In this document: positions 7,717-30,234 of the stretch, in pieces | How the letters are laid out: each line of letters opens with the position of its first letter | Position numbering within the stretch: position 1 is the stretch's first letter | IMG/VR virus record: IMGVR_UViG_3300021389_000082 | Location: 1-33,811 of that record | Source of the DNA: a virus | Reading direction: 5' to 3' (one strand) | DNA: 33,811 bases | Made by a program: the position numbers and the translations under genes | The notes under the pieces: model-generated | The model's database searches: none | What the model saw: only the letters and a program-made list of their open reading frames with translations | What the model was told of the DNA's origin: nothing

Positions 7717-8069
7717 TGTTTACTATAATAGACGACAAACACAAAGATGTTTTATATACTGGTTTAAATGTAGAGCAAAGACAAGCTAAACTTAAACCAG
7801 ACAATCGATTCTTACTTACAGAAAGTTACGATACTACACCACAAGTAGGTAAAACTAAATTAGATACAACTACACACGATTTTGTTTTAATGACATGGAC
7901 AGAAGTTAAAGCGTGTAGAGATAGAATACTTGCTGCTTCTGATTGGAGAGACTTGCCTAGTTATGCAGGCTCTGATCAAGCAGCATGGAGAACATATAGA
8001 CAAAAGCTGAGAGACCTTCCACAAGATTACACTAACGTGGAGGATATTGTATTCCCAACGGAGCCATAA
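7716..8069 (+). CDS. Phage tail assembly chaperone-like protein
   Basis: 117 residues starting at TAATG. The second half reads ACRDRILAASDWRDLPSYAGSDQAAWRTYRQKLRDLP and ends with a Phe-Pro motif, the recognisable signature of the small tail assembly chaperone family (Phage_tail_APC, PF16778), usually found just after a tail fibre gene as here. The N-terminal half is a short beta domain (about 1-60). It probably helps the fibre fold or attach and may be absent from the mature virion. Confidence 0.82.
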   Translation: MFTIIDDKHKDVLYTGLNVEQRQAKLKPDNRFLLTESYDTTPQVGKTKLDTTTHDFVLMTWTEVKACRDRILAASDWRDLPSYAGSDQAAWRTYRQKLRDLPQDYTNVEDIVFPTEP

Positions 8070-8506
8070 TGTACACAATACAAAGAATAGTAGGAGAGGA
8101 TTTACTTCTCAATTATCAAGCAATTAAAACAGAACTAGAAAAAGCACTGGAATACTCAGATGGTGAGAGAAGTGCAGCACAAATTATACTCAATAGTGTC
8201 TCACAGCCCCAAATTTACCAGATATGGCAAGTTTATAAAGATGGTAAGGGGGTAGCACTAGGTTCAACAAGAGTCGTCCAATACGAAGGATTTGTGGCTC
8301 TACACATAATTACATTAGCTGGTGATACTGATGGAGATTTAACAGAGTGGTCAGCTATGTTTGAACAAGAAATGAAAGACCAACCTATTGACATGTTAGA
8401 ACTAACAGGTCGCAAAGGGTTTGTAAAACAATTAGAGAAAGCAGGTTGGACTGAAAGGTATACAACTATGCGCAAGTTAATCAAGGAGAAAGCCAATGGC
8501 GAATAG
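8069..8506 (+). CDS. GNAT-fold protein, T7 gp13 (internal virion protein A)-like
   Basis: 145 residues starting at TAATG. The pattern is that of a degenerate acetyltransferase fold: a strand and helix start, a central strand pair (YQIWQVYKD, VALHIITLAG), and a C-terminal ELTGRKGFVKQLEKAGWTERYTTMRKLI, which matches the end of GNAT domains. T7 gp13 has the same fold, size and place in the genome, just before the gp14-like gene. A clear acetyl-CoA binding Q/RxxGxG/A loop is not visible, so enzymatic activity is doubtful. It overlaps the next gene by 11 bases. Confidence 0.72.
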   Translation: MYTIQRIVGEDLLLNYQAIKTELEKALEYSDGERSAAQIILNSVSQPQIYQIWQVYKDGKGVALGSTRVVQYEGFVALHIITLAGDTDGDLTEWSAMFEQEMKDQPIDMLELTGRKGFVKQLEKAGWTERYTTMRKLIKEKANGE

Positions 8507-9095
8507 TACAATGACATCAATAACATCTTATGCAGATGATTATAAAGATCAAGCCAAAAAGATATTAGATGATGCTCAGAATCTTTACGATACTGGACAG
8601 CTAGGTAATGTTGCTGGGTTTACACAAGCACAGACAGATGCACAAGCTGCTGGTTTGGCTGCGGGTCAAGCACAGATAGGTCTTGAAGGTCAGCTTGCAG
8701 GCATGGCTGGTCAGACTGATTTGTCTGGTATGAGACAGCAAGCCAAGAATGAAGCGTTACAAGCTTTAGGTTTGAATGCTGCTGCAGCTGGACGTATGGG
8801 AGGCATTGGTGGCTCTCGGCAGTTTATAAATAATCAATCGATAGCTAATGATTTAGCAGCATCGTTTGGTCAAATAGACATGCAAAGACAACAAATGGAT
8901 GTTGCAAATACACAAGCAGCATTACAAGCACAAGGCACAGGTGCTGGGCAAATGGCACAGATTGGTCAAGCTCAACAGCAACAACAACAGAATGTTAATG
9001 ATGCTGGTTATACTGGACTAACACAATTAGGTGAAATGTTTTCTAATATTGCATCTAAGAAAACGAGAACAGAGTCAGACCAAGGAGGTAAATAA
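8496..9095 (+). CDS. Internal virion protein, T7 gp14/P22 gp7-like
   Basis: 199 residues, Ala/Gln/Gly-rich, almost entirely helical by composition, with repeated AQAAGLAAGQAQ and a QAQQQQQQN run. Residues 75-110 (GMRQQAKNEALQALGLNAAAAGRMGGIGGS) carry a small-residue helix that could insert in membranes. Gene position between the gp13-like protein and the large internal proteins, size and composition fit the pilot or DNA-transfer protein class (T7 gp14, P22 gp7), which leaves the capsid and enters the cell envelope at infection. A ribosome binding site (AAGGAG) precedes the ATG. Confidence 0.72.
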   Translation: MANSTMTSITSYADDYKDQAKKILDDAQNLYDTGQLGNVAGFTQAQTDAQAAGLAAGQAQIGLEGQLAGMAGQTDLSGMRQQAKNEALQALGLNAAAAGRMGGIGGSRQFINNQSIANDLAASFGQIDMQRQQMDVANTQAALQAQGTGAGQMAQIGQAQQQQQQNVNDAGYTGLTQLGEMFSNIASKKTRTESDQGGK

Positions 9096-9610
9096 TGCAT
9101 CCAAGAATGATGGGACCATTAGGTATGTTTGGTATAGCTGAGTCACAAGTGGAAAGAATTGGATACAATCCTTTAGAAGCGTCTAACCCAATGGGTGAAC
9201 CTATGTCTGGAGGTGGCGGTGGTGGTTTTGGTTTTTCATTAGGTGGACCACAAAGAATTAATCAAGGTTTTGCAGAAAAAGATTATGTAGGATTTGACGA
9301 CCATTACACTGGTGCTGGAAGAAGAGGTGCGGGTTCTTATGGTTTTGGTGGTAGTAATTATAATGTTGAAGCATATAAAAAATTAAGTCCAGTAGAGCAA
9401 AAAGCATTTACAGATGATTATATGAAAAACAATAGATATTCTAATGTTACTATGGGAAGCAAATGGGCAAAACCAGTAGCAGCACCATTGGCTTCTAGAG
9501 TTATTGTTGGTGGTAGAGGAAGAGGTGGAAGAGGTGGAGTTACAAGAGTTTCTAGAAGTACACCTTCTAATAGTTATTCAAATTATAGCAGAAGAGTAGG
9601 GAGCAGATAA
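9095..9610 (+). CDS. Gly-rich basic virion protein with RGG-like tail
   Basis: 171 residues starting at TAATG. Three parts are visible: a Met/Gly-rich opening (1-60, with GGGGGFGFSLGG), a small folded middle around VEAYKKLSPVEQKAFTDDYM (about 90-112), and a basic tail (about 137-171) with GGRGRGGRGG and closing SNYSRRVGSR. RGG-like tails bind nucleic acids in other systems, so contact with packaged DNA or a role in ejection is plausible. No family is recognised. It sits inside the internal virion protein series and probably belongs to the particle. Confidence 0.7.
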   Translation: MHPRMMGPLGMFGIAESQVERIGYNPLEASNPMGEPMSGGGGGGFGFSLGGPQRINQGFAEKDYVGFDDHYTGAGRRGAGSYGFGGSNYNVEAYKKLSPVEQKAFTDDYMKNNRYSNVTMGSKWAKPVAAPLASRVIVGGRGRGGRGGVTRVSRSTPSNSYSNYSRRVGSR

Positions 9611-10227
9611 TGGCAAATGTATACGCACCGTTATATAATAGTTTGCAAGCTAGAGGTAGGATGTCTCCGCTTGGTCAACCTGCAGCTATCAGACCTTATG
9701 AAAAGAAAAAAGGTTTAGGTGAAAAAGCAGCAGGTGCATTAGGTCAAATGATATCTGATAGTATGGCTCCAGCAAAAAAACCATCAACATCTGAGCGTCT
9801 TGCAAGAGCAAAAAAGAAAGACAAAGAACTTAGAAGTGCTTTACAAAATCAAAAAAGTATTGACCAGCAACCAAAAGTAATGCAGGCTCCTTATGTTCAA
9901 GTAGGAACTGACGCAGAAGGAAATAAAGTTTTTGGATTTCCTGAAGGTGATGAATACAAAATACCAACTAGACCAGTAGGACGAGCAACACCAGGACCTA
10001 GTTTGTTAGAACAAGAATGGTTTCATAACAGAGCATTGATTCAAAATTTACAAGGTGAAAGTGGAGAAAGAACAAGCGGGTTTAGTGATCCAAAATTAAA
10101 CAATCAATTAATATATGATAATTATGTTATGCCAGACAGATGGGATGATTTTACTCAACCAGTGGGTCAAACAAACGATCCTGTAAGAAATTTTCTATCT
10201 AGTCTTTCTAAAATGGGATTAAATTAA
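9610..10227 (+). CDS. Hypothetical virion-associated protein
   Basis: 205 residues starting at TAATG. The N-terminal half is basic and probably disordered or helical (EKKKGLGEKAAGALGQMI, then SERLARAKKKDKELRSALQNQ). The middle has a small beta motif (APYVQVGTDAEGNKVFGFPEGDEYKIP). The C-terminal part is polar with aromatic residues. No signal peptide, membrane helix or recognisable motif. A placement between the gp14-like and large internal proteins suggests a structural or ejection-related role. Confidence 0.68.
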   Translation: MANVYAPLYNSLQARGRMSPLGQPAAIRPYEKKKGLGEKAAGALGQMISDSMAPAKKPSTSERLARAKKKDKELRSALQNQKSIDQQPKVMQAPYVQVGTDAEGNKVFGFPEGDEYKIPTRPVGRATPGPSLLEQEWFHNRALIQNLQGESGERTSGFSDPKLNNQLIYDNYVMPDRWDDFTQPVGQTNDPVRNFLSSLSKMGLN

Positions 10228-10238
10228 AGGAGAGTTAC

Positions 10239-12488
10239 ATGACTTTTGAAGAATGGGATGCAATAACTCCTGACTATGGACAGCCCGGTGGTTACATAAA
10301 TGGCATGGGAAGTACTATGACTATACCTAGTACAAGAGAATCTAGATTAAGAGATTATCAAAATTCTTTATCACCACAAGCTATAGATGAAATAGTTACA
10401 AATGTTATGCAAAGAGATGAACCTACTTTATTAACAAATGAGTTTGGTGCTGTATTAGATAGTCCTGAAATTATTGCAGGTTCTCCAGACAAAGCAAAGT
10501 TTGAAGTGTCTATAGCAAATGATGGCGCTATAGAAACTAAATCACAGACTACTATGTCAAACGGTGATACTACTGAAATAAAAAACAAAACACAAAATGA
10601 TACAGACAAAAGTATTTTAGATACTGTATTAGCAACTTTAGGTATTGGAGAAGCTAAAGCATCAACTGATAGTGGTTCTTTTATTACAAGCACAGATCAA
10701 TTAGAAACGCCAGCTCCTACTGGAGTTTACGAGTCAGATTATTTTGATGATGTAAGTGGCGAATTAATTAAGAGTAGCGCAATTGATCCTAAGCAAGATA
10801 ATTTAACTTCTGAATTATTTGATGGTACATACAATCCTGATTTATACGAGAATCCTAAATATGTTATAGATGGCTCTGGAGCTTTTGTTCCAAATCCAAA
10901 CTATGATCCAGAAGCTGGTCAAGGAGCAAAAAGTTCTGCATATCCTGATACACCTGAAGGTAATCTTAATAGAGTTATTGCAAAGACACCTTACGATGAA
11001 ACGCAGTCTGTTATGGCAGCTCTTAAAATAGATACAGACACACCAATAACAGCTGAAAGTTTTATAGCAGAATTAGAAAGACAAAAAGAATTAAAAAAAA
11101 TAGCAGAGAGTTCTATTTTAGATACAACTGAATTACCAATTGTCACTGAAGATAAATCAAAAGCAACTGGAGAAGAAAAAGAAGCAACAAAAGATATGGT
11201 TCAAGAAGCTGTTCAAGTTATTGCTAGCGAGCAGCCAAATGAATTAACTCGTTTAAATGATTTTGCTTTGTGGGCTGATGGTGTTTCTGATGACCAAGCT
11301 ATAAGAGAAGCTGAAGCTGTATTAGAACAAATTGCAAATGCACCTACAGTAACTGACAGGTTTAAAAAAGCAATGGGTGTGGCTTTTGGAGCTATGTTAT
11401 TTGGAGATGATTTTGTTACAGCAATGAACACAGGACTAGGGGTAGTCGCTGATGATTATTCAGCAGAAGCAACCGCAGCTCAAGAAGCAAGAGATGCACA
11501 AATAGAATTGCAACAAGAAATAGCTAAAGAGCAAAGAGCTTTACAAAACGATTTGTTTAAAGCTGATTACAATTCTTCAAGAGATGCACAAGAAGCAATT
11601 ACAAAAATGATTGCAGAATATGAAATGAAACTTCCTGAAGAAGAACGTAAGGCAGCAGCTAATAGAATGAAAGAAAACATTGCTGCTGGTAGAGTTATTA
11701 TGGAAGACACTATCAACTCTATAGGTGAAGATAAAGCAAACTTTATTGATTTAGATGGAGAGTGGGCAGGTTTATTAGTTGCACTTGAAGAATCAAAACC
11801 AGCAGGGTTTTCAGTAGATGTAACAGAGCCGTTGCAAAGAGCAGCTTTAAATGGTTTGTTTAGAAAATATATAACTGAACAAAAATCTATGAGTGAGTAT
11901 GGAAATAAAGCAGCTCCTCTTGCATCTTATGCACAAGAATTCTTTATTAAGAATGAGCTAAGAGAGTTTACTGAAGGCATGGGTGCTATTGATCCTAATA
12001 TAGTTTCACCATCAAGAGCTTATCTAGAAGACAGACCATTTATTGGTCCAATGAATGCAGATGGTGTAAGGACCAAACAAGTTTATGTTGGTAATTCTAA
12101 AGAGTTAGGACCACTTATTAAGGCTGGAACTGAAGCTACTCAACAACTTGGTACAGAAATAGAAAAATTAGGAGCTTCTGGTTTAGGTGAAAGAGGCACA
12201 ACTATTCTTTTGTATAAAGATTACACCGACTTTATGAAACAATCTTTTGACAAAGGTGATGGTGTATTTGAAACAATGGAAAAAGTTGCTTATCAAAAAG
12301 GTTGGGGTCCATTTACACAATTTGTTTTAGTTCACATGAAAAACAAGTTAACTCTTGACAATATAGGTAAAAACTTTGATTCTTTGTTAGCAAATGAATC
12401 AGAAGAAATTGATGTTAGAGCTTTGAAAATGTATATGGAAACTGGAGCTTACGATTTAGAACAAATAAAACGTGAGCTAAACAAATAA
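10239..12488 (+). CDS. Large internal virion protein (749 aa)
   Basis: 749 residues, preceded by AAGGAG. The first 400 residues are acidic, low in aromatic residues and likely extended. At about 325-550 there is a long helical region (SAEATAAQEARDAQIELQQ, EERKAAANRMKENIAAGR) typical of coiled coils. A globular C-terminal part follows (GAIDPNIVSPSRAYLEDRPF, then ERGTTILLYKDYTDF, YQKGWGPFTQFVLVHMKNK). I find no transglycosylase, peptidase or nuclease motif. Its place, first of three ever larger proteins, corresponds to T7 gp15 or an equivalent ejection protein, but sequence similarity to gp15 is not evident. Confidence 0.7.
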   Translation: MTFEEWDAITPDYGQPGGYINGMGSTMTIPSTRESRLRDYQNSLSPQAIDEIVTNVMQRDEPTLLTNEFGAVLDSPEIIAGSPDKAKFEVSIANDGAIETKSQTTMSNGDTTEIKNKTQNDTDKSILDTVLATLGIGEAKASTDSGSFITSTDQLETPAPTGVYESDYFDDVSGELIKSSAIDPKQDNLTSELFDGTYNPDLYENPKYVIDGSGAFVPNPNYDPEAGQGAKSSAYPDTPEGNLNRVIAKTPYDETQSVMAALKIDTDTPITAESFIAELERQKELKKIAESSILDTTELPIVTEDKSKATGEEKEATKDMVQEAVQVIASEQPNELTRLNDFALWADGVSDDQAIREAEAVLEQIANAPTVTDRFKKAMGVAFGAMLFGDDFVTAMNTGLGVVADDYSAEATAAQEARDAQIELQQEIAKEQRALQNDLFKADYNSSRDAQEAITKMIAEYEMKLPEEERKAAANRMKENIAAGRVIMEDTINSIGEDKANFIDLDGEWAGLLVALEESKPAGFSVDVTEPLQRAALNGLFRKYITEQKSMSEYGNKAAPLASYAQEFFIKNELREFTEGMGAIDPNIVSPSRAYLEDRPFIGPMNADGVRTKQVYVGNSKELGPLIKAGTEATQQLGTEIEKLGASGLGERGTTILLYKDYTDFMKQSFDKGDGVFETMEKVAYQKGWGPFTQFVLVHMKNKLTLDNIGKNFDSLLANESEEIDVRALKMYMETGAYDLEQIKRELNK

Positions 12489-12496
12489 GGAGTCAC

Positions 12497-15400
12497 ATGG
12501 CTACTGAAATACAACGTTCGAAAAGAATTAATGCTTTGCTAGATATACTTCCAGAGGTTCGCACAGTTGATGCAGATACAGTTCTTGATGATCGTGGACC
12601 AGTACGTTTTGTCAATGCTCGTGCGCCTGAAACACAACATATTATTCCTCAAGGTTTAAAAAAAGCAGAAGCTGGTGGACAGTTTTATACTGAGCTGTAC
12701 GAAAAACTTTGGAATGAATCTGGAATGAATCAGGTATATCGTACTGGCAAGAAAGGATATTATGGTCGTGACTTAGGTGGATTGCAAGATAAATACGGCA
12801 ATGACTTTATGGACAAAGCTGTCTATGAAGGCATTGCTACTCCACAAAATAAACATCAGCGTGAGCTGTATGACATGGGTTTGTTTGAAAGAGCATTTCA
12901 AACAGATATTTCTGGAGATGAAAACACAGACATATGGTCGCAAGCCAGAGACGAAATAAATGACTATCAATCGAAAACATCTATTGGTATTAGGCGTACT
13001 GCTTTAAATGAAGTTGAGTTACGTGATTATCAAGATTATTATGGAGCTACATATAGTCCGTTTTTTGATTCACAAGTACAGTTTAGACATCCCGGTAGAA
13101 CATTAGATAATGAATCGACATCTGATTTTGCTGGAGGTTGGTTACAAGGATGGGGTGGAATAAAAGAAAGTTTAAACAACGCAATCTCTTTAGGTGGAGA
13201 TGTAATTGGTAGTCAGTATATGTTTGACAGAGGTCAAATAAGAGCTGATGAATCTGCATATAGATTGTCACAAATGCCTAGAATCAAAAATGATTTTACT
13301 CAAATAGAAAACTTTGGTGATTTTGTTGATTGGGCACAAACATCTACTGGCGTAGCTTTGCCATACATATTAGGTATAGTTGGCTCAGCTGTTGCTGGTG
13401 CAGCAGTTACTGCTACAGCTCCAATTACTGGAATCTTAGGCACAATTTTTGGTGCTGCTTTAACTTGGCAAGCTCCAATGGCATGGATATATGCTGGTGA
13501 AGTATATGGAAACATGGAAGGTGACATGGATCAACGTAATGCTGCTATCGGATTAACTGGTGGTATTGCAATGGCATCTTTAGATAGATTAGGACTGGCT
13601 GGTATATTTAGTACTGGTCAAGTTTTAAAAAGACAAGGACTAGAAGAGGTTGCAAAGGCTTATGCAAAGAAAGAAGGTGTTGGCATAGACGAAGCACGAC
13701 TTAAAGTACAAGATGTTTTTGGAAACATTACTGTAGCTGCATTAAAAGATTTAGATACTATTGCTACATTACAAATGAGCAAAGCTGTTCTTGCAAAACA
13801 AACTGGCAAAGGAGTTTTGTTAGGTGCAGGAATAGAAGGATTAACAGAAGTTGCTCAAGAAAGTATTTCATATCAGGGTGGTAGACTAGGTACTGACGAA
13901 CAAATAAGAAAGCCTTTTGATGTAGATGAATACAAAAGAATCATGGCTAATGCAGCAGCAGGTGGTATGTTTCTTGGTGGAGCTATTAGAGGTACAACAA
14001 CTTTTACAAGTGAAGTTGGCGGATTTCAAAAGCTCAAACGTCAAGGGAAGATGGACGCTAAAGTTGAAGGCAGATATATTGGCGGACGACTTGAAGATAA
14101 CCTAGACAAAATGGTACAAAATATAGATGCTAACAAACCAAAGCATGGAACGCCACCACCAACAGCGCCATATGGCTCACCTGAGTATTACAACCAAAGA
14201 AATTCAGCAGGTGAATTAGAGTCTTCTCAAAGTATAGCAGAAGAAATAAGTGCTGAAAGAAAGAAGGGTGATTATGAAGACAAGTCTAAATGGAGAGGTG
14301 GAGCAAAAACAATTTACCAAAACTTTAAAGAGTTTCCTAAAAGGTTTACACAAAAGTTAGGTGCGTTTTGGGAAAACAAAGTATTAAACAATCCAAACAT
14401 ATCTGACAAAGGCAAAGAAGCATTTCAAATTTTACAAACAATAGCTGGCTCTGGTAAATTTTCTAGCATGCAAGGTGTTGATTTGTTTGAAATGAAAAGA
14501 ATGATGCAGTCTGGTTTGATGGCTGAGGTTAAAACAATACAAGATGATTTGTATATGTTACTTGGTGTTGGTTTAGAGGCTGGTAGATTTAATACTGGAA
14601 GAACTAAATCAGAGGCAAACAGTTTGTTTCTTGATTACTTAGATGAAAGAGCTTCTGGTAAAAGCACTACACAAGTCTCAGCCAAGTTTAAACCTTATAT
14701 TAATAAGCTAGAAGAATTACGTTTAGCTATTGGTGGTCAAGAAAAGAAAGGCACAGGTGTTACAGACAAACTTTATGATGCAGTTGATGGTTTGATTGCA
14801 CGTACTGGACCAAATAAAAAACCATTTTGGTTTCAAAAAAGTAAGCGTCTTAAAAAAGATACTGTACTTGAAAACAAAGATGAGTTTATTAAAACATTAG
14901 AAGACAATGGTTGGACATCTGAACAAGCAACAGATTTTTTTGACATGATTGAAAATGGTCCTACTGGTTATGACTTGAGCACAGTACATGAGTTAGGTTT
15001 TATGAACTTTCCGTCTAAGTCTTTAAGAACTGGTAAAGGAATTCTTGAAGATGTATTTGGAGATGACTCTAAGTTTTTAGAAAACGATCCGTTTCAAAGG
15101 CTTATGGAAAACATTCAAGAACAAACTAACTATGCAATAGATAGAAGATATCTGGGTGAGAATGGAAACAACATAAACATTTTGCTTAAAATAATTAAAG
15201 ATGAAATGGGTGGTGATTGGGATTCACGTATTGCTACACACTTTATGGATTATATTGCAGCAAGTCGTGGTGATTATAGAAGATTAAAAAGTAAAAAACT
15301 TGAAAGACTTATAGGTCATATTACTTTCTTTAATACTTTTGGTCATCTTGATTTATCAGCATTAGCGTCAACACCGGAAGCAGCAATTGTTTTGCTCGGT

Positions 15401-16639
15401 GCAAAAAATGATAAGAAGCTTATGCCTATGATTGCTAAAGGTGTTGAAGAGTTTTCACAAAAATTACGCAATGATATTAGTGACAACTGGTCATATATAA
15501 ATCCAAAGTCTGGTGTTACTCGTGATAAATATCTTAGAAATTTAATAGACTTTTATAGATATGGTTATGACACTGGTGCACATGGTGCAATTGGACAGGT
15601 TGGTATTGATGAAGCTGTGTATAAAGCATCAAAAGTAAAAGAAGCTGTTATGAAAGCATTCTTTTCTGTTAACTTGTTAAAAGTTTATACAGATGCTACA
15701 AGAGTAGGTCGTCTGTCGCTTGCCAATGATATGATATTTGGTGATTTTGAAATCATATCAATGTTTCCTGAAGGCAGCGCAGAAAGAAGTTCAGGTTTAT
15801 ATATAGATGCATTTGAAAGATTAAGAGAGTTAAATATTGATCCTGTTCCTGCAGCAGAAACATACAAGGTTATGGTTGACCTAGCAAAAAGAAAGTTAGG
15901 TGAGGGTGCAGACCCTGAAGCTATCTATGAAACAATGATTCAGTACAATCCAGACTTTATGAAGACTATGGATATTGCACGAGTTAGTTTTATTGATAAT
16001 GCTATTGCTCATCCAACAGCTATGAATAGACCTATATGGTATTCTAATCCTGCATATAGAATCTTTACTCAGTATAATGGTTTTATGTCTGTGTTTACTG
16101 CACAGCTTCTTCCTAAAATTTGGAGAAGAATTAAACGTGGCGATCCTACTGCACGATACAATGCTGTAGCTGTAGCTGCTTCAATGATTGCATTAGGTTT
16201 TCTTAATCAAATGTTAAAAGATGAATGGAAGTATGATGGTGCACCGGGTTGGATTACTACTAAAGGTTATGTTCAAAGAGGTATATCATCTTCAGGTTTA
16301 ATTGGAACACCAGAAAGATTGTTATCTGCTATCAGTCCAATTTACGACATGAGTAAAACATGGAATGAAAGTAGAATGGATAATATTTTAAGAAGAGCTG
16401 GTCATGCAATTACAGAAGGACTTGGTCCAACGTATGCACATGGTGAGCAATTAAGCAAGATATTTTTAAATCAACTTGAAGGTAATAAGAAAATGAGAAA
16501 CTTTTATCTTTCAAAAGAAATACCTTTCTTAGGTAAGTTAAAAGACTTCAAAGATTATAATCTTGGAGTAAATGATTCTGGTATGGATTTAAATGAAACA
16601 TTAAAAAATTCTATACCAACTATTAGATATCCGTTATAA
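12497..16639 (+). CDS. Giant internal virion protein with N-terminal staphylococcal-nuclease-like domain
   Basis: 1380 residues after a good binding site (AAGGAG). Residues 20-130 follow the staphylococcal nuclease pattern: VDADT (D27 for D21), VRF (R37 for R35), APE (E45 for E43), YYGRDLGGL (R91 for R87) and AVYEGIA. The position of metal ligand D40 is Arg (R42), so activity is uncertain. A hydrophobic Ala/Gly-rich region at about 283-337 and weaker ones near 445-500 (KGVLLGAGIEGLTEVAQES, ANAAAGGMFLGGAI) could insert in or span membranes. The rest is helical, and the C-terminal part (around 1180-1290) carries RPIWYSNPAYRIFTQYNGF and an AVAVAASMIALGFLNQML helix. The order of domains suggests an ejected protein that passes the envelope with the DNA. 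No lytic transglycosylase motif is seen. Confidence 0.78.
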   Translation: MATEIQRSKRINALLDILPEVRTVDADTVLDDRGPVRFVNARAPETQHIIPQGLKKAEAGGQFYTELYEKLWNESGMNQVYRTGKKGYYGRDLGGLQDKYGNDFMDKAVYEGIATPQNKHQRELYDMGLFERAFQTDISGDENTDIWSQARDEINDYQSKTSIGIRRTALNEVELRDYQDYYGATYSPFFDSQVQFRHPGRTLDNESTSDFAGGWLQGWGGIKESLNNAISLGGDVIGSQYMFDRGQIRADESAYRLSQMPRIKNDFTQIENFGDFVDWAQTSTGVALPYILGIVGSAVAGAAVTATAPITGILGTIFGAALTWQAPMAWIYAGEVYGNMEGDMDQRNAAIGLTGGIAMASLDRLGLAGIFSTGQVLKRQGLEEVAKAYAKKEGVGIDEARLKVQDVFGNITVAALKDLDTIATLQMSKAVLAKQTGKGVLLGAGIEGLTEVAQESISYQGGRLGTDEQIRKPFDVDEYKRIMANAAAGGMFLGGAIRGTTTFTSEVGGFQKLKRQGKMDAKVEGRYIGGRLEDNLDKMVQNIDANKPKHGTPPPTAPYGSPEYYNQRNSAGELESSQSIAEEISAERKKGDYEDKSKWRGGAKTIYQNFKEFPKRFTQKLGAFWENKVLNNPNISDKGKEAFQILQTIAGSGKFSSMQGVDLFEMKRMMQSGLMAEVKTIQDDLYMLLGVGLEAGRFNTGRTKSEANSLFLDYLDERASGKSTTQVSAKFKPYINKLEELRLAIGGQEKKGTGVTDKLYDAVDGLIARTGPNKKPFWFQKSKRLKKDTVLENKDEFIKTLEDNGWTSEQATDFFDMIENGPTGYDLSTVHELGFMNFPSKSLRTGKGILEDVFGDDSKFLENDPFQRLMENIQEQTNYAIDRRYLGENGNNINILLKIIKDEMGGDWDSRIATHFMDYIAASRGDYRRLKSKKLERLIGHITFFNTFGHLDLSALASTPEAAIVLLGAKNDKKLMPMIAKGVEEFSQKLRNDISDNWSYINPKSGVTRDKYLRNLIDFYRYGYDTGAHGAIGQVGIDEAVYKASKVKEAVMKAFFSVNLLKVYTDATRVGRLSLANDMIFGDFEIISMFPEGSAERSSGLYIDAFERLRELNIDPVPAAETYKVMVDLAKRKLGEGADPEAIYETMIQYNPDFMKTMDIARVSFIDNAIAHPTAMNRPIWYSNPAYRIFTQYNGFMSVFTAQLLPKIWRRIKRGDPTARYNAVAVAASMIALGFLNQMLKDEWKYDGAPGWITTKGYVQRGISSSGLIGTPERLLSAISPIYDMSKTWNESRMDNILRRAGHAITEGLGPTYAHGEQLSKIFLNQLEGNKKMRNFYLSKEIPFLGKLKDFKDYNLGVNDSGMDLNETLKNSIPTIRYPL

Positions 16640-16650
16640 AGGAGTTATAA

Positions 16651-19600
16651 ATGGCTTTACAACTTAGACCAACAACAGGGTCTGGACAAGAAACGTTTAG
16701 ACCAGACAGACCGCAATCATCTAGGATGAATGCATTGATTGAGGCATTAAATGTTGGACCAATTACTGAAGGTGCATTAGATAGAATTCATGATGAAATG
16801 AGAACTATTTATCCATCTGTTGTTGATGAAAGTACACAACAAATAAGTCCAACAGTTGGAGGTGGAGTTGAACCTGCACGATCTGTTGAAAAAACTTATC
16901 AGCCTAGTTCAATAGGTTATAAAGGTCCGGGAGATGTTCAAGCAAGAGTAGCTGGCAATGTAGGATTAAGTCAAGAAAGATTTAGTCCAGAGTTAATGCA
17001 ACGAATAGCTCCTAACTATGCTGGATTAGACCCTAATCAAGACAAGCCATACTTATCTCCTGATGAAGAGATATATTATTTGCAAGAATTTGCTAGACTG
17101 AAAGGAGTAACTACATTAGAAGTAGAGCAAAGCCCAGCTTTAACAGAAGAGTTTGGCAGATATCTTGGTCAAAAAACAATGACTATGGATAATGATAGGT
17201 ATGTTAATTACACTAGGGAAGGACAAAGTTTTGGCGGAAGAACTCCAACGCTTTATAGAACGCCTTCACAAATTAGTAATTATAATCGTCAAGCATATCC
17301 TGATGCAGCAGGCAATCCAGAATTTGCTATTACTGATTTAGCAAGAGGTGACAGAGAACAAATAGTTCAGAACCTTGTAGACTATGGAATGTTAAGAGAG
17401 CATGCAGAAGAAAGATATGATGAAGCTGTAAAATTAAATCCAGAGGAAAGTGTGTTAGCAAAAAACATGCACTTGATTGCAGCAGCAGCTACTTCTAAAA
17501 AAGCTAAACAAGAATATGCTTATCATGAAAATGGTTTGTTTGGTATAGCTGACAAGGTTCATAAATCTTTAATGGGAACTATGCGTTCAGGACCAATGGG
17601 TCCAGCTGCAATAGAAAGGTTTGCTATGAAGATTGAACAAGGCAATCCAAATTTCTCAAGGTCTCAAGCCAGAGATTTTCTTTATAGTTTTGTTTCTAGT
17701 TATGCAATGGTTAAAGAAGCAAATCCAAATGCTGGTCGAGCTTACGCTGACTTTATGGTTCTTGCTGTATTACATCACGCAAAAACTAAACTATCTAATT
17801 ACGAAAGAAAGAAAAGTTCTGATGATGCAGACAGACAAATGAGAAACGAGTCTACAGAAGAAGCAGCTATAAGAGGCGAAAGAAGTTTAATGGTTGGCAT
17901 TTCTGATGATAGAAAAATTGGCAAGTTAATACTTGACGCTATGGGCTTTGCACAAGCAAGAAGCGAAGAACATGCAATTGCAGGATCAATGGCTAAGAAC
18001 ATGATGGTTGATGCTTTTGAATCACAAGATGCTAATCCAGATAGTGAAATGTTTGGTGATTGGAATGAACAATTGTTTCAAAAAGAAATGATTACTGAAA
18101 CTAATTCAGATGGTTCTATAAAGTTAGATGAAAAGAATCAGCCAAGAAAACATATGAACTTTACTCTTACATCTAAAGGTTTAGACATAGCTGAAAGATT
18201 AACACCGATGATTGAAGTTGTAATGCCCGGTGCTGTTAAAGATGTTAGGTATAACAGAAGACCTGTAGTGCCATCAATTGAATCTGTAACAAAGTCAAGG
18301 TCAGGTGGTCCAAGAAAAATGGTTGGTAAAACAATCAAACAAACAGGTAAGCCAGTAGATATAGGTGATGTTACTGAAATGGACGAGATGAAAAACGTTT
18401 CAGAAAACACAGGTGTTGGCATTAATATTGCTATGGCTGCGCTTGTACAAGAAATATTAACTGAGTTTCAAAACATACTTGCACGCAATGGCAACGATAC
18501 AAACTCTATTGGTTTTTTAAATGACTATAAGAACTCTATGATGTTTGCCATTGAGCATTCGAAGTATCAAAACATGAAAGGTGATGGCACAGGAAACAGA
18601 GGTATTTATGGTGATCGTCCCGGTGTTGTTTTAAAAAGAGATAGACAAGGTAATTTTCTTAAAACAAATAAACAATCTGGTATTGATGAAATAGTAGAAC
18701 AAGAGTTTGCTGATGAGTTAGGTGACTTTAGTGATAGAATTAAAGACGGACAGTTCGATAGTGCTATAGAATTTATTCAAAGAAATGTTGTTAATGGTGT
18801 ATCAAAAGAATTTTTCTATGATTATTTTTATGGATTAAACACTAGATTAAATGTTGACCAGAACGTAGGAAATTATCAACATAACAAATTGATTAGGTCT
18901 TTAATTGAATCACACAAGAAGTTTGCATATGAATTAAATAATCCTATGCACGTTATATCTTTGAAAGCTGGAATTATGAAACGTTTTGGTTACGACAAGA
19001 TGGATGTCTTAACAGCAGCAGATCAATTTGATAAAGAAGTTGATTTGTGGGAAGGAACTACTACAGCAGAAAAAATAAACATAGGTAAAAATTGGGAAGG
19101 CTGGGCTTCAGTTGCAGCAATTGCAGAAGCAGTCCAATTTAATCAGGCAATCAAAGACCCAAATGTTCCAGTATATACATCAGGTTTTTACACAGAAGTT
19201 GATGGACTTACTAATGGTATGGCTCACTCTGCAGCACAGGCTGGTGACATGAGAACTGGATGGGGTGCAGGTTTGTTTGATCCAATTCGTTATGACCATT
19301 GGGTTAGAAACTATGATTTAATTGAAAAGTTTCAAAGAGAAGGAAATCTTGATGCGTTGGCAGATTTAGAACATGAACAAGGAAACTCAATAAACTTTGC
19401 TGTTTACTTAGATGCTTACAATAGAGTTAATGAAAGCATGAAGAATGACATAAGACGTTTATGGGATGGCTCATCTAAACCCGGTGTACCTATGAGTATA
19501 GGTTTGCCCGGCTTGATAACTGATGCTGCACATGAAGGTGCAATGGCTATCATGCAGTTAGCACATGCAGGTGGTGACGGCAAAGGTCAAGGCAGCAGAA

Positions 19601-20856
19601 AGTTTGTTGATGCTATACGTATTATGTCTAAAGAAGACCCAGTAACTGGAAAACTACGTAATAAATTAGGTCGTTCATTTGTTAAAAAACCAGTAATGAT
19701 TTTTGGTTATGGCGCAGGTGCTGCAAGAATAAGAGAGTCAGTTAGAAATTTTGTAGATGATTTGTTTCTTAAAGACCCTAGTTTACGTGAAGAGTTTATA
19801 GCTAATGGTATAGATATTGATAAAGAATTTATTGATCCATTAGGTGTTATTGCAGCAGAAGCAGTTAATCAAAGCTTTGGAATAATAAAAGAGTTTGCAA
19901 CAACACTTTCTGAAACTGCTACAGTAGCTAAACAACAAGGCTTTCCACTTAACATACCTACTTTGGCTGGCTATAAAATAAATCTTGGTGGTGTTACTTA
20001 TCAAGCAGACGAAGGCAACAGGGTTAGATATAAGTATAATCCAGGTGCTAGTGCTTTAGAAAGAGATAGATATTTAACAAGCACTGATCCTGAGTATGTT
20101 AAAAAAGAAAAAACACCAAATGCATTTGAAGGTATATCTCAAATGATGGTGTCTGATTGGAATCCTTTCTTTGAAACAAATGGATTTCTTAAGGCAGCTA
20201 CTCAGATTACTGTAATGTTAAATCATGCTAATGACAATATTAATATGAACAGACATTTAGTTAATGTTCATAAAAGAAAGCTAGCCAATAGAAAAAATCC
20301 TATTGAGTACAATTCAAGTGTTACAGAAGCAGGCAACACAGCGCTACATATTTTTGATGGCTTGCTTGTTATGCCTATAGAAGCAGAGATGCACACTAAA
20401 GAGTTAAACAAAGTGTTTGGTAACATGGCTAAAGCAAATAAAGGTCATACTAGTTTTGTTATAGATGCGTTAACATATGAATTGCACGCTAATGGAGACA
20501 GAATATCTGACCCTAAAACTGATTTAGGCACTAGGGGAGATGTTTTTAAAATTGGTGCAGTAGAATTTGACACATCATTTAAAAGATTGTTAAACTCAGA
20601 AGGAGAAGCAGTGCTAGCAACACATGAAACGTGGGGCACATGGCATCCGGGATTAGATAAGTATGCTTTCCAATGGAAAGATGATTCTGCAACAGTTTTA
20701 GAAAAGTTAAATCTTTTTGACAATAGAAGACAAAAGATGGCAAACAATATTTCTAATTACCATCAGTTTTTTTGGGCAACACAAGATGTTAATACACTTC
20801 TAAACAATAATCCAGATAGAGTATCTGCACACGTTAAACCAAGAAACAAAGTATAA
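16651..20856 (+). CDS. Candidate virion-packaged single-subunit RNA polymerase
   Basis: 1401 residues after a good binding site (AAAGGAG). In order it shows four motifs of the T7/N4 RNA polymerase family: DYFYGLNTRLN (R732, like the DxxGR motif), EVDGLTNGMAHSAA (D851, motif A), RSFVKKPVMIFGYG (R1008, K1012, Y1020, motif B; aligns without gaps to T7 R627, K631 and Y639) and HIFDGLLVMPIEA (D1236, motif C; Pro six residues on, as in T7 after D812). The motif C His is Phe. The N-terminal 700 residues are unlike T7 polymerase and may serve packaging, ejection or promoter binding. It is the last gene of the internal virion series, the context of N4's virion polymerase. N4's protein is about 2.5 times longer. 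Proposed role: enters with DNA and transcribes early genes. Confidence 0.8.
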   Translation: MALQLRPTTGSGQETFRPDRPQSSRMNALIEALNVGPITEGALDRIHDEMRTIYPSVVDESTQQISPTVGGGVEPARSVEKTYQPSSIGYKGPGDVQARVAGNVGLSQERFSPELMQRIAPNYAGLDPNQDKPYLSPDEEIYYLQEFARLKGVTTLEVEQSPALTEEFGRYLGQKTMTMDNDRYVNYTREGQSFGGRTPTLYRTPSQISNYNRQAYPDAAGNPEFAITDLARGDREQIVQNLVDYGMLREHAEERYDEAVKLNPEESVLAKNMHLIAAAATSKKAKQEYAYHENGLFGIADKVHKSLMGTMRSGPMGPAAIERFAMKIEQGNPNFSRSQARDFLYSFVSSYAMVKEANPNAGRAYADFMVLAVLHHAKTKLSNYERKKSSDDADRQMRNESTEEAAIRGERSLMVGISDDRKIGKLILDAMGFAQARSEEHAIAGSMAKNMMVDAFESQDANPDSEMFGDWNEQLFQKEMITETNSDGSIKLDEKNQPRKHMNFTLTSKGLDIAERLTPMIEVVMPGAVKDVRYNRRPVVPSIESVTKSRSGGPRKMVGKTIKQTGKPVDIGDVTEMDEMKNVSENTGVGINIAMAALVQEILTEFQNILARNGNDTNSIGFLNDYKNSMMFAIEHSKYQNMKGDGTGNRGIYGDRPGVVLKRDRQGNFLKTNKQSGIDEIVEQEFADELGDFSDRIKDGQFDSAIEFIQRNVVNGVSKEFFYDYFYGLNTRLNVDQNVGNYQHNKLIRSLIESHKKFAYELNNPMHVISLKAGIMKRFGYDKMDVLTAADQFDKEVDLWEGTTTAEKINIGKNWEGWASVAAIAEAVQFNQAIKDPNVPVYTSGFYTEVDGLTNGMAHSAAQAGDMRTGWGAGLFDPIRYDHWVRNYDLIEKFQREGNLDALADLEHEQGNSINFAVYLDAYNRVNESMKNDIRRLWDGSSKPGVPMSIGLPGLITDAAHEGAMAIMQLAHAGGDGKGQGSRKFVDAIRIMSKEDPVTGKLRNKLGRSFVKKPVMIFGYGAGAARIRESVRNFVDDLFLKDPSLREEFIANGIDIDKEFIDPLGVIAAEAVNQSFGIIKEFATTLSETATVAKQQGFPLNIPTLAGYKINLGGVTYQADEGNRVRYKYNPGASALERDRYLTSTDPEYVKKEKTPNAFEGISQMMVSDWNPFFETNGFLKAATQITVMLNHANDNINMNRHLVNVHKRKLANRKNPIEYNSSVTEAGNTALHIFDGLLVMPIEAEMHTKELNKVFGNMAKANKGHTSFVIDALTYELHANGDRISDPKTDLGTRGDVFKIGAVEFDTSFKRLLNSEGEAVLATHETWGTWHPGLDKYAFQWKDDSATVLEKLNLFDNRRQKMANNISNYHQFFWATQDVNTLLNNNPDRVSAHVKPRNKV

Positions 20857-20860
20857 AAAA

Positions 20861-20899
20861 AACCCCCAACAGTTTCCGTAATGGATTCTGTTGGGGGTT
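20861..20899. terminator. Bidirectional rho-independent terminator between convergent blocks
   Basis: A 12-bp stem, AACCCCCAACAG (861-872) with CTGTTGGGGGTT (888-899), and a small inner helix (TCC with GGA). It is flanked by seven or more A on the left and T on the right, so it works on both strands. It begins five bases after the stop of the polymerase-like gene and lies four bases from the end of the last minus-strand gene. Confidence 0.95.
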
Positions 20900-20902
20900 T
20901 TT

Positions 20903-21190
20903 TTAATAGCCTCGCTTTTGCTTGACTTGATTTAATAAATTTCTAGCTTCTTGTCTACCTTTGTTTGCAACTTTTTTAGCCCAAGAGTTTGCTTCTTGCT
21001 CAGACCTTCCCATTTTAATTGCAGCATTGTATTCTAATTCAAGATTCTTTTCATAAGTATCATTGATTAACCAGTTGTTTATTTCTGGTGTGTTAGCTAA
21101 CTTTGGTGGAACACCATAGGAATCTACATATTCCTTATCTGTTACACCATCCAGAGCTAGAATATTATGTTCTCTTTTCTTCTCTGCCAT
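20903..21190 (-). CDS. Hypothetical small charged protein, last gene of the early block
   Basis: 95 residues; AGGA precedes the ATG. The chain starts with a charged stretch (AEKKREHNILALDG), has a Pro/Asn segment (VPPKLANTPEINNWLIND) and ends in a long basic helix (AIKMGRSEQEANSWAKKVANKGRQEARNLLNQVKQKRGY reads as helix-turn-helix-like). DNA or RNA contact is possible because of the basic end, but no family is recognised. It ends against the shared terminator at 20861-20899. Confidence 0.7.
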   Translation of the reverse strand: MAEKKREHNILALDGVTDKEYVDSYGVPPKLANTPEINNWLINDTYEKNLELEYNAAIKMGRSEQEANSWAKKVANKGRQEARNLLNQVKQKRGY

Positions 21191-21191
21191 G

Positions 21192-21377
21192 TCAATGTCC
21201 TGATGTTAATATGGTTGAACCTTCTTGAGTCTCTTCGTCATCTTCTAGGTAGTCTATTAATGATTTTAGAAAGTTTCCTTCTTCATTCATAGGGTATACC
21301 ATCTCGATTACTTCTGTTCTCTTTGCTTTCTCACTGTCATCTATTATAGTAAAGGTTGCTTTAACCATGGTTTGCAT
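21192..21377 (-). CDS. Hypothetical small acidic protein
   Basis: 61 residues. AGGAGATCAAC precedes the ATG at 21377; a second in-frame ATG lies nine bases on. It overlaps the upstream gene by 17 bases and ends one base before the next gene. The sequence shows a beta-like start (VKATFTIIDDSEKAKRTEVIEM) and an acidic end (LEDDEETQEGS). Unknown function. Confidence 0.68.
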   Translation of the reverse strand: MQTMVKATFTIIDDSEKAKRTEVIEMVYPMNEEGNFLKSLIDYLEDDEETQEGSTILTSGH

Positions 21378-21555
21378 GTTGATCTCCTGATACCATGTTA
21401 TATCCTAAGATAGCCATGCTTTTAATTAAACTTCTTAGAGCGTCTTCTGCTGCAGATTTTATTTCATCTGATACAGTTTCTTGCTCTAGTACGTGTATAC
21501 ATGTGTTAGTCATATCGACTAATGAGTATGCTTTGTTATGCTGTTCTTCTGTCAT
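21361..21555 (-). CDS. Hypothetical small helical protein
   Basis: 64 residues, preceded by AAAGGA. Composition and pattern suggest two helices (EQHNKAYSLVDMTNTCIHVLE and DEIKSAAEDALRSLIKSMAIL). No membrane segment or known motif. It belongs to the tail of the early operon, with 12 bases between it and the upstream micro-gene. Confidence 0.68.
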   Translation of the reverse strand: MTEEQHNKAYSLVDMTNTCIHVLEQETVSDEIKSAAEDALRSLIKSMAILGYNMVSGDQHANHG

Positions 21556-21567
21556 TATAATTTCCTT

Positions 21568-21702
21568 TTATTTTTTCCAGTCATTTCTCCAAAATGGTCT
21601 GGACTTTTTTTTTAAATCCTTGTAAAGTTCGGCAGTCTTATCCATTTGAACAAGACCACCGGGTTCTTTTTTTTTCCTCTTAGACTTTACGCCTCCAGCC
21701 AT
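21568..21702 (-). CDS. Basic 44-residue micro-protein
   Basis: A 44-residue frame starting within the end of the upstream micro-gene (overlap of 16 bases). It is strongly basic, with a KSKRKKKEP segment near the start, a short helix (LVQMDKTAELYKDLKKK) and RPFWRNDWKK at the end. It fills an otherwise empty stretch in a gene-dense operon, which is the main support; its ribosome binding site is poor and translational coupling would be needed. The basic N-terminus could bind nucleic acid. Confidence 0.55.
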   Translation of the reverse strand: MAGGVKSKRKKKEPGGLVQMDKTAELYKDLKKKSRPFWRNDWKK

Positions 21703-21803
21703 CGTGCTAGTAATGCTACTACTACAATGCCTGCCAAGATAGCGTACGTTTTATGTTCGCTAACTTTATTCTTGAGGGTTTTCGGATCAATTCTCCAAGT
21801 CAT
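21687..21803 (-). CDS. 38-residue single-pass membrane micro-protein
   Basis: A frame too short for most gene finders, with AAGGAG six bases before the ATG at 21803. The first 18 residues are polar and basic (TWRIDPKTLKNKVSEHK), followed by a membrane helix at about 20-34 (YAILAGIVVVALLARW). It directly follows another small membrane protein gene (gap of 10 bases), so the two may work together, for example as a pinholin and antiholin pair or a superinfection-related pair. That is speculation from topology and position. Confidence 0.68.
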   Translation of the reverse strand: MTWRIDPKTLKNKVSEHKTYAILAGIVVVALLARWLEA

Positions 21804-21813
21804 TTATGTCTCC

Positions 21814-22056
21814 TTACTTAGATAACTCATTTGTTATATCTTTGTCTAGTAACTTCCAGATAATTCCAGCAGCAATTAAGCCTGCTAATCCAGCGTTACC
21901 TAACGTCCATACTATATTTAGTATAGAACCAATTACATCTCCAGTTAAGAAGGCAACCTTCTGACCAAAGATAACTTGCAATACAATTGACAAGCTAATT
22001 AGTTTGATGCCTACATCTATTGCAGCATCAGCACCGTTTTTTATTTTCTCTAACAT
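21814..22056 (-). CDS. Small membrane protein with two hydrophobic segments
   Basis: 80 residues, preceded by AAAGGAG. Hydrophobic segments at about 14-31 (DVGIKLISLSIVLQVIFG) and 41-67 (VIGSILNIVWTLGNAGLAGLIAAGIIW), with Gly/Ala spacing in the second and a charged tail (KLLDKDITNELSK). Holin-like by size and topology, but it lies in the early block rather than near the late putative lysis genes. It could be an early membrane modifier or a second, antagonistic lysis component. Confidence 0.7.
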   Translation of the reverse strand: MLEKIKNGADAAIDVGIKLISLSIVLQVIFGQKVAFLTGDVIGSILNIVWTLGNAGLAGLIAAGIIWKLLDKDITNELSK

Positions 22057-22057
22057 T

Positions 22058-22459
22058 TTAACTCCTTTCGTTATTGTGTTTCTTCATGTAGTTTGTAAGA
22101 CCTTGAGCTACTTCCGGGCTGCCTTTCAAGTATCCTTCTGCTGAATTGCACCAGTGACATAACAATCCTCTGACTGTTCCTGTCGCATGGCAATGGTCAA
22201 CAAAAAGTTTGTGGTCGTCATCCTTTCCATAATCACAAAACTCATTAGCACATGTACCACCTTGTTGTTTGAGCATGTTATCGTACTCTTCAACTGTTAG
22301 GTTGTACTCAGACTTGAGATGATACTCATGTCTAATGATTGCTTTGCAAGGTTTGCATCGTCTATCTTTTCCAAGATGTGAGCTACTCTTTATATGGAAT
22401 GCGCTCTCATCTTTTACTGTCTCACAAATTGTACATCTGATTTTGACTACGTTAGACAT
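22058..22459 (-). CDS. Recombination endonuclease VII-like HNH nuclease
   Basis: 133 residues. N-terminal zinc finger CTIC...CKPC (C9, C12, C35, C38), then YNLTVEEYDNMLKQQGGTC and the catalytic part with DHCHATG (D88, H89, H91) and VRGLLCHWCN (C101, C104, N105). This order is the signature of the Recombination_endonuclease_VII family (PF02945), whose T4 member (gp49) resolves branched DNA before packaging. It starts one base after the ribonucleotide reductase stop. It would be the second branch-cutting enzyme here after the RusA-like protein; homing-type HNH activity is an alternative, since such nucleases often sit beside ribonucleotide reductase genes. Confidence 0.92.
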   Translation of the reverse strand: MSNVVKIRCTICETVKDESAFHIKSSSHLGKDRRCKPCKAIIRHEYHLKSEYNLTVEEYDNMLKQQGGTCANEFCDYGKDDDHKLFVDHCHATGTVRGLLCHWCNSAEGYLKGSPEVAQGLTNYMKKHNNERS

Positions 22460-22460
22460 G

Positions 22461-24422
22461 CTACTCTTGGTCGTTATCCTCTTCCACTAGGTCAACTAAC
22501 TCGCATACGCTTCCAGTACAAGCAAGCGTTTTATTACCTACTGTTGTATCTTCCAGCTCGTACTTACTTATCAGGTCCCAATCAACTGACTTGGGCATTG
22601 CTTTGGCTAGCTCGTTGTACTGTTCTTTAGTACAGTCTTCATACGGAGCTTGCTGGTACGTGTGGTCTGAATGCGGTAGGAAACTTACACCTGACACCTC
22701 GTCAAAGTGTTTGTATACCCACGCACCTACTTCCATCCATTCATGTTCCTTGACGGAAACAGTAACACTAGGTTTATGTTCGCAGTAATACCTTTGATAT
22801 GTTAGCCATAACTCAAGTTGTTCAATAGCATTTCTATCATTCCTAAGTACCGCACCATCAGGTGCTTTCATAGGAAATGTAAAGACCTTGACGCTGTTTG
22901 GTTTCATAACGTCTGCTTCACATGGTATACCTTGGTCTTCCATAAGTTGAGCAATCGGATCTTTTGAGTCTGCTCTTACTCTACGGAAGTAGTAGTCATT
23001 GTGTCTGGTGTGGATACCTGACGCAGAGTCTACTAGTTGGCTTACTGTACCGCTAGGTTTAATAGCAGTTGTTGCAGTAGCCTGACTGATTCCAAGAAAT
23101 CCTGACCAGTCTTTGTTTGTATCTACAGAAGCTTGCCTTATCTTTTTAAGGAAGTCGGGTAAGCTCATCTTTCCATGGTAGCCTCTGTTTGTATTGCTGC
23201 CATTCATGAATGAGTTGTCCATGATGCCAGTTAACGAGACACCTAGCAATGCTTCTTCTTCTGTATTAGAGACCCACTTAGGTCTCAGTCTTTTAATATT
23301 AGTAAGGGATGCTTGGAACGTACCTAATATAGTAGCCAGCTTAACCTTATTTAATATGTCTTTCTGATGGTCGTCTGCTCTAACAACAACTTCAGTTAGG
23401 TTACAGAACTGACCGTCTCTTAATATGATTTCACTACAAGGGTTGCAGCCAAAGTCATGTTCAGTATCACGTCTGCCTATAGATGCTACCTGTTTCTTTG
23501 CAGCTTCTCTATTAAAGATACCACGCTCACCAGATTTAGATTCGTAGAGGGCGTTCCATTCTTTCATAAAGATACTCATGTCGGGCTTTTCTGTATAGCA
23601 TACGCTGTTATTACTTAGTGCCATCTCTGGTGTATCGCTCCACCACTGACCAGACTTAGCACTTCTCATGCGTTCGTCAGTCAAATTACTGAGGGAAATC
23701 AATGCACTACGTCTAACACCACCAACGACAACAACCTCTGCTACCTTACACATCATGCGGTGACACTCATAGCTTGTTAACTTTCTGCCTGCAGCATCTT
23801 TAAAAATGTTGGTTGAGAAGTTAAACAAATCTAACAATGGCTCTGGTCCACTAGCTCTACCGCCAAATGTTTTAAGCCTTGATCCTTTCTTTCTAATTCT
23901 AGAAAAATCCCATTTGGGCATCTCGCCATTATATAAATATGTAATTAGTTTTCTGAATGCAGACTGCCATCCTTCTTTAGAATCTTGAACAACTATAACA
24001 TCATCGACATCAATAAGTTCTTCTGGTATCTCTGGTAGTTTATTTATGTGTTGGCGTTCAACACTAAAGCCAACACCAGTACCATGCATAAGAATGTACA
24101 AGCACTCATCGAATGCTTTAGGATGGTCAACACTAAGATATGCACAGTTGTATCCAGCTATATGATTCTTGGCTAGCGCTGGTCCAGCAGTCATTAGTGC
24201 TCTCATGCTTGGCATAATTTCTAGGTTAAGCACTGCATGCTCTAGTCTTTTTCTAGTTTTAGTATCTAATTCGTAATCTGTATTTTCTTTGAGGTGCTCT
24301 GCCATAAAATCAAAATACCTAGCTACAGTTTCTTCCCATGTTTCTCTTCTATTTTTTTCTGGTAGCCATCTTGCATACCTACTTAATGCTATAAAGTTTT
24401 GATAATCATTAGGTAACTTCAT
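22461..24422 (-). CDS. nrdJ: Adenosylcobalamin-dependent (class II) ribonucleotide reductase, monomeric type
   Basis: 653 residues, somewhat shorter than the 739-residue Lactobacillus enzyme. It reduces ribonucleotides to deoxyribonucleotides with a B12 radical, needing no oxygen and no small subunit, so it supplies the phage with DNA precursors. Visible residues match the known mechanism: redox pair C93 (in YNCAYLS) and C340 (in QFCNLTEV), thiyl cysteine C329 with N327 and E331 (NPCSEI), and the shuttle pair C635/C640 as CX4C in the C-terminal tail. HGTGVGFSVE (113-122) is the typical loop. All catalytic residues are intact. The host must provide or import B12. An endonuclease VII gene follows immediately. 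Confidence 0.96.
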   Translation of the reverse strand: MKLPNDYQNFIALSRYARWLPEKNRRETWEETVARYFDFMAEHLKENTDYELDTKTRKRLEHAVLNLEIMPSMRALMTAGPALAKNHIAGYNCAYLSVDHPKAFDECLYILMHGTGVGFSVERQHINKLPEIPEELIDVDDVIVVQDSKEGWQSAFRKLITYLYNGEMPKWDFSRIRKKGSRLKTFGGRASGPEPLLDLFNFSTNIFKDAAGRKLTSYECHRMMCKVAEVVVVGGVRRSALISLSNLTDERMRSAKSGQWWSDTPEMALSNNSVCYTEKPDMSIFMKEWNALYESKSGERGIFNREAAKKQVASIGRRDTEHDFGCNPCSEIILRDGQFCNLTEVVVRADDHQKDILNKVKLATILGTFQASLTNIKRLRPKWVSNTEEEALLGVSLTGIMDNSFMNGSNTNRGYHGKMSLPDFLKKIRQASVDTNKDWSGFLGISQATATTAIKPSGTVSQLVDSASGIHTRHNDYYFRRVRADSKDPIAQLMEDQGIPCEADVMKPNSVKVFTFPMKAPDGAVLRNDRNAIEQLELWLTYQRYYCEHKPSVTVSVKEHEWMEVGAWVYKHFDEVSGVSFLPHSDHTYQQAPYEDCTKEQYNELAKAMPKSVDWDLISKYELEDTTVGNKTLACTGSVCELVDLVEEDNDQE

Positions 24423-24428
24423 TATTAC

Positions 24429-24632
24429 TTATCCTCCATTAATTTTTACTTCTATATGTTCTTCTCCAAACTTATCTTTAGTGATTTTGTATTGAAGTTC
24501 TTTTCTATAATGCATATGTATTGCATCAGTTATACCTTTAGCATGTTGTAATTCTCCATGCTGTTTAAAAGCATAAGCTATTCCAATTGCTATTAATACC
24601 CATAAAAGGATATATATATTTTCAATTATCAT
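24429..24632 (-). CDS. Small N-terminally anchored membrane protein
   Basis: 67 residues overlapping the rusA-like gene by 11 bases. One transmembrane helix at about 5-22 (NIYILLWVLIAIGIAYAF) is followed by a polar domain with HGELQHAKG and a basic-acidic end. No cleavage site, so probably anchored with a cytoplasmic tail. Unknown function; it may hold replication or nucleotide-synthesis proteins at the membrane, which is conjecture. Confidence 0.7.
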   Translation of the reverse strand: MIIENIYILLWVLIAIGIAYAFKQHGELQHAKGITDAIHMHYRKELQYKITKDKFGEEHIEVKINGG

Positions 24633-30228: not shown

Positions 30229-30234
30229 CCTCCT
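30229..30234 (-). promoter_or_regulatory. Ribosome binding site deciding the start at 30224
   Basis: AGGAGG, four bases before ATG and overlapping the upstream TAG stop. It indicates coupled translation and rules in favour of the ATG over an upstream TTG. Confidence 0.75.

Follow-up and report, generated by a model that had tools for sequence, protein, structure and literature searches.

The best-known enzymatic domains at the front of phage ejection proteins are peptidoglycan hydrolases. In T7, the giant ejection protein gp16 carries an N-terminal lytic transglycosylase that is periplasmic after ejection (PMC8954989), and no occurrence of the word "nuclease" turned up in that review of ejection proteins when its text was read. 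Nuclease and other effector domains are delivered with the virion by the multi-domain polyvalent proteins and MuF toxins (PMC5512222, PMC5576092); no mention of SNase, the staphylococcal nuclease domain, turned up in the text of the survey on polyvalent proteins. The one precedent we found for an SNase-related domain on a virion protein is the baseplate hub of the BtI1 phage-like element, where the domain is likewise N-terminal (PMC2147016). The BtI1 element is related to the large phage 0305phi8-36, however, and its hub is a homologue of gp147 of that phage, not a podovirus ejection protein. A literature search of open-licence papers found none on an SNase front of a podovirus ejection protein.

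Here we describe a probable front of this kind in an uncultured virus, IMG/VR record IMGVR_UViG_3300021389_000082, of which we analysed a stretch of 33,811 nucleotides that we call the window. Ejection proteins with enzymatic fronts are already known; what is new is a front of the SNase type, with an unusual change in its metal site. The closest annotated protein is gp34 (QBQ72827.1) of CRP-7, a cultured Roseobacter podovirus with a short tail (PMC6918029). No other annotated relative with an SNase front came to light. Its annotation is hypothetical protein, and a look for "nuclease" in the text of the paper describing the phage gave no hit (PMC6918029). Like the window protein, gp34 is an orthologous giant protein with the front in register and occupies the same place in a cassette of three giant genes. 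It differs in having Asp at position 40 (staphylococcal nuclease numbering) and a longer first hairpin, and its downstream neighbour shows no detectable likeness to RNA polymerase, whereas the window's does. The only cultured relative of this short-tailed group is a marine one.

The window gene (12497-16639, + strand) starts at an ATG preceded by AGGAG, stops at 16639 and encodes 1380 amino acids. The SNase-like domain spans approximately residues 20-120 (12554-12856, +), as placed by a subthreshold Pfam match, a PDB profile search, hhalign and the model of a relative. It does not fill the whole of 12497-12890, the range given in the initial annotation. The residues that annotation had named are where it had put them: D27 in VDADT, R37 in VRF, E45 in APET, R91 in YGRDL, and R42. 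The segment D25-A-D27-T28 (12569-12580, +) occupies the D19/D21/T22 positions of staphylococcal nuclease, so that the D19 position is kept as well, and R37 (12605-12607, +), E45 (12629-12631, +) and R91 (12767-12769, +) correspond to the catalytic R35, E43 and R87. A list of metal and catalytic residues of the same kind has been used for a Mycoplasma SNase (PMC3585158). Of the metal ligands, the D21 position is retained as D27, and the D40 position, five residues past R37 where SNases have a calcium ligand, is R42 (codon CGT, 12620-12622, +).

The front is almost certainly a divergent SNase-homologous domain, a reading that draws on profile comparisons across its family and on a predicted fold. 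SNase (PF00565) was the top Pfam family for window residues 36-119 at 14.6-14.7 bits, and the window, L019 and L030 scored 14.6-15.2 bits against a gathering cut-off of 21. A profile of nine orthologous fronts (A11, window included) aligned to 91 bacterial SNases using hhalign with a probability of 96.4, an E-value of 1.3e-9 and a score of 57.8, whereas the top score of 60 column shuffles was 19.5. With a six-sequence profile (A4), staphylococcal nuclease was the top PDB match (E 0.0017), and the alignment placed the catalytic residues in register. Because the Pfam score lies below the cut-off and the profile comparison is clear, we class the front as a divergent relative of SNase and not as a member of the Pfam family. 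In addition to that score, it departs from the family in the D40-to-R change and in being fused to a 1380-residue ejection-type protein; it shares with the family the D21, R35, E43 and R87 positions, the residue spacing and, judging by a relative's model, probably the fold.

The fold evidence comes from that relative, since the window's own front model (mean pLDDT 41) was too poor for fold searches. The AlphaFold model of the L005 front, which is of the CRP-7 type, has the order of strands and helices of the SNase fold, a five-stranded barrel with helices, with a mean pLDDT of 48.6 and values of about 60-73 in much of the core. Staphylococcal nuclease was its top match both with Foldseek (E 7e-4, prob 1.00) and with VIA (Z 9.6, 105 residues aligned, rmsd 3.7 A). 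A tudor-domain chain, 7oc3_A, is also in the VIA match list (Z 9.2) and is not counted as separate evidence. Chance resemblance could be argued from the window's poor model and from its sequence alone, which scored 6.7 bits on a local bacterial SNase HMM, within its shuffles (maximum 8.8). The case for SNase therefore rests on the family. Against chance, the profile-profile, PDB profile and fold searches agree, the first two with the catalytic residues in register, and we regard this explanation as scarcely credible and already strongly disfavoured. The SNase homology proposed from the window sequence thus holds for the family, and the match between the L005 model and staphylococcal nuclease supplies the fold hit whose absence would have spoken against it.

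Close-relative scans with P0001 and P0002, the latter being the window protein, returned no viral-contig relative, and no related prophage turned up in a scan of genomes. Relatives were instead reached through CRP-7 and alignments of conserved stretches. A BLASTP comparison of CRP-7 gp34 with P0002 aligned the two fronts in register, IMG/VR contributed five homologues of the CRP-7 type (L005-L009), and alignment scans yielded five members of the window's own clade (L019, L030, L032, L033 and L034). As far as these sequences indicate, the SNase front is ancestral to the family made up of the CRP-7 type and the window's clade. Nineteen of the 101 front columns are invariant in nine orthologues, and D25, D27, R37, E45 and R91 are all included (hypergeometric 1.5e-4, with columns treated as independent); T28 is invariant as well.

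Position 40 behaves differently. It is D in CRP-7 and L005-L009, N in the five members of the window's clade and R in the window only, among the family members compared. The substituted metal ligand noticed in the initial annotation is real, and the comparison with homologues adds that the nearer relatives have N and the CRP-7 type D. We surveyed SNases in 286 genomes of a single bacterial phylum, reached via the Patescibacteria locus L036. In the 75 bacterial SNases that had the other four residues intact, position 40 was D in 60, N in 15 and R in none, so that within this phylum N counts as a usual variant, in contrast to R. We considered whether R42 could be a single sequencing error. Since CGT differs from AAT or AAC by at least two base changes, one base error fails to explain it. 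A second copy of the R42 allele was not found; the approximately 95% identical contigs L003 and L004 begin downstream.

The front is also the best-conserved segment of the protein between the window and L005 (35% identity, vs 18-27% elsewhere). Between L005 and L006 the fronts are 97% identical with a dN/dS of 0.025, compared to 78-87% identity elsewhere in the protein, a pattern which, at the level of sequence, is that of a front whose function is kept. Pairwise front identity was 54-56% for the window and 70% for L019 with L032. Relaxed constraint on the window front, which these values suggested, was evaluated by relative-rate counts against L019 and L032, and no comparison was significant. 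The window front is thus not simply decaying, as these counts show no faster change. Its net charge is -1, whereas those of the five clade relatives range from -9 to -11 (8-10 charges more acidic), a post hoc observation on one sequence; the rest of the window protein is not unusual. At four positions of the front, that of R42 included, the window departs from a residue common to the five relatives.

The protein behind the front is of the virion type, in agreement with the initial placement of the domain at the front of a giant virion protein. PHROG family phrog_6958 (virion structural protein) matched it with an E-value of 5.3e-20 and a best stretch at residues 886-1249, and its C-terminal part is shared with structural or particle proteins from three phages, NV1 and KPP25 of Pseudomonas and BA6 of Vibrio. 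No SNase front was detectable in the NV1, BA6 and KPP25 homologue records, and a PDB profile search with the whole protein gave no match at E 1 or better. A hydrophobic segment lies behind the front at residues 286-304 (13352-13408, +; Kyte-Doolittle sliding means 1.4-2.0). Hydrophobic peaks in this region fall at about residues 275-325 in the window, L032 and L034 and at 391-444 in CRP-7, a weak signal drawn from hydropathy; a gp16-like protein would be expected to have such a segment. Taken with the cassette order and the short tail of CRP-7, the PHROG match and the hydrophobic segment make it very probable that the window gene (12497-16639) encodes an ejection protein.

The gene is the middle member of the three-giant-gene cassette. 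The upstream member of this presumed ejection cassette (10239-12488, +) encodes 749 amino acids, its gene order is kept in L019, L030, L032 and L034, and no enzymatic front was found in its product. By comparison, the N-terminus of CRP-7 gp35 (L002 25696-29367) matches PF16754, a phage-lysozyme-type domain (E 3.6e-6), and a second giant protein of the CRP-7 cassette therefore has an enzymatic front. Over approximately 9.3-20.85 kb, the cassette has about 65-80% DNA identity to L019, L030, L032 and L034 where alignable, whereas its flanks (8069-9256 and 20855-24645) are 94-97% identical to L034 and 93% identical to L030 and L019 (94% for the right flank of L019). The window from about 9256 to 20850 is a sharply bounded variable cassette. 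At its right edge, positions 20841-20904 also match L003, L019, L030 and L034 in inverted orientation, perhaps as a bidirectional terminator. Within the right flank, the window's ribonucleotide reductase copy (22461-24422) is one ORF; in CRP-7, gp44-gp46 (L002 35552-38170) comprise an adenosylcobalamin-dependent ribonucleotide reductase annotated in two pieces around gp45.

The downstream cassette member (16651-20856, +) encodes a 1401-residue RNA-polymerase-like protein. It matched PF00940 (RNA_pol) over the cut-off with an E-value of 1.4e-5 and phrog_414 with 4.7e-8, and PF00940 matched three of five orthologues. Stretches resembling motifs A, B and C are present (EVDGLTNG, KKPVMIFGYGAG and HIFDGLL); a PDB profile search with this protein gave no match at E 1 or better. 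The protein may act as an RNA polymerase of the virion without belonging to the N4 group. The window also encodes, separately, an early-type RNA polymerase at 30233-32677. In L030 (12123-16312) the RNA-polymerase-like gene is divided among three ORFs by frame changes and is whole in the close relative L034; the split probably reflects contig errors.

We propose that the front is an SNase domain delivered by the virion to the periplasm, which would act as a nuclease in relatives whose position 40 is D or N and would be weakened, or would only bind, in the window phage. As a whole, we hold this account to be about as probable as all others together. The ejection protein would leave the capsid ahead of the DNA, the hydrophobic segment behind the front would insert into the inner membrane, and the front would remain at the periplasmic face of the channel as it forms, by analogy with the T7 gp16 transglycosylase. 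Sea-water-like calcium at the periplasmic side would suit an SNase. Fronts of the D and N types could then act as divalent-metal-dependent nucleases, attacking nucleic acid of the host or competing nucleic acid during the passage of the phage DNA inside the channel, and we lean towards a nuclease in these relatives. The R-type front of the window would use the former active-site cleft to bind nucleic acid, which it would cut poorly or not at all. Because an arginine replaces the calcium ligand and most of the negative charge is lost, a binder is likelier than a cutter, and we judge an impaired or binding-only front the somewhat better supported reading for the window.

The main rival is that the window front is still an active nuclease, using a displaced or different metal and perhaps, like Tudor-SN domains, with a preference for RNA or single strands. 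D27, R37, E45 and R91 are all kept and the front shows no acceleration, contrary to what a dead domain would lead one to expect. The Tudor-SN of C. elegans is still a calcium-dependent RNase despite SN1 and SN3 domains that retain only one of the calcium ligands (PMC5900569), so R42 need not abolish cutting, and the Mycoplasma SNase prefers magnesium over calcium (PMC3585158). However, the absence of Arg at position 40 from all 75 of the otherwise intact bacterial SNases weighs against activity, and a positive charge in the calcium site should oppose metal binding. We consider retained activity rather unlikely, if still a serious contender. Alternatively, the family may use the SNase fold only to bind DNA, as a clamp on the genome end or the channel, and never to cut. 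Drift at position 40 would then be tolerated, which fits its variation between D, N and R while the phosphate-binding arginines stay, and another ejection protein, gp44 of 80alpha, is reported to bind genome ends and protect them (PMC7290940). Yet E45 and D27, residues that catalysis requires and binding does not, are invariant, the CRP-7 type has a complete site, and the acidic fronts of the relatives do not favour DNA binding, so we regard such a clamp as unlikely. The NV1, BA6 and KPP25 scaffolds indicate that the remainder of the protein does not need the front, and they would permit a purely structural module of the ejection channel that has no role with nucleic acid. We find this very improbable given that the invariant columns of the front include catalytic residues.

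The virion-delivered nuclease that we propose, weakened in the window phage, also admits a broader and quite tentative reading. Virion-delivered SNase-fold fronts at the entry channel of short-tailed phages could form an unrecognised class, in which the D, N and R series would run from cutting to gripping, as part of an ejection cassette that is sharply different from one phage to the next even where the flanking genes are near-identical. Polyvalent proteins and MuF toxins would be comparable in bringing effector domains with the virion; their MuF, portal and MPTase scaffolds differ from that of the window protein. With D, N and R occurring naturally at a single calcium ligand, the family supplies proteins by which cutting and binding can be told apart, and since CRP-7 is cultured, the question of virion location can be settled there. 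The conservation of an SNase-type front in CRP-7 and its uncultured kin raises the question of whether the phage brings a periplasmic nuclease with it and, if so, what that nuclease would cut.
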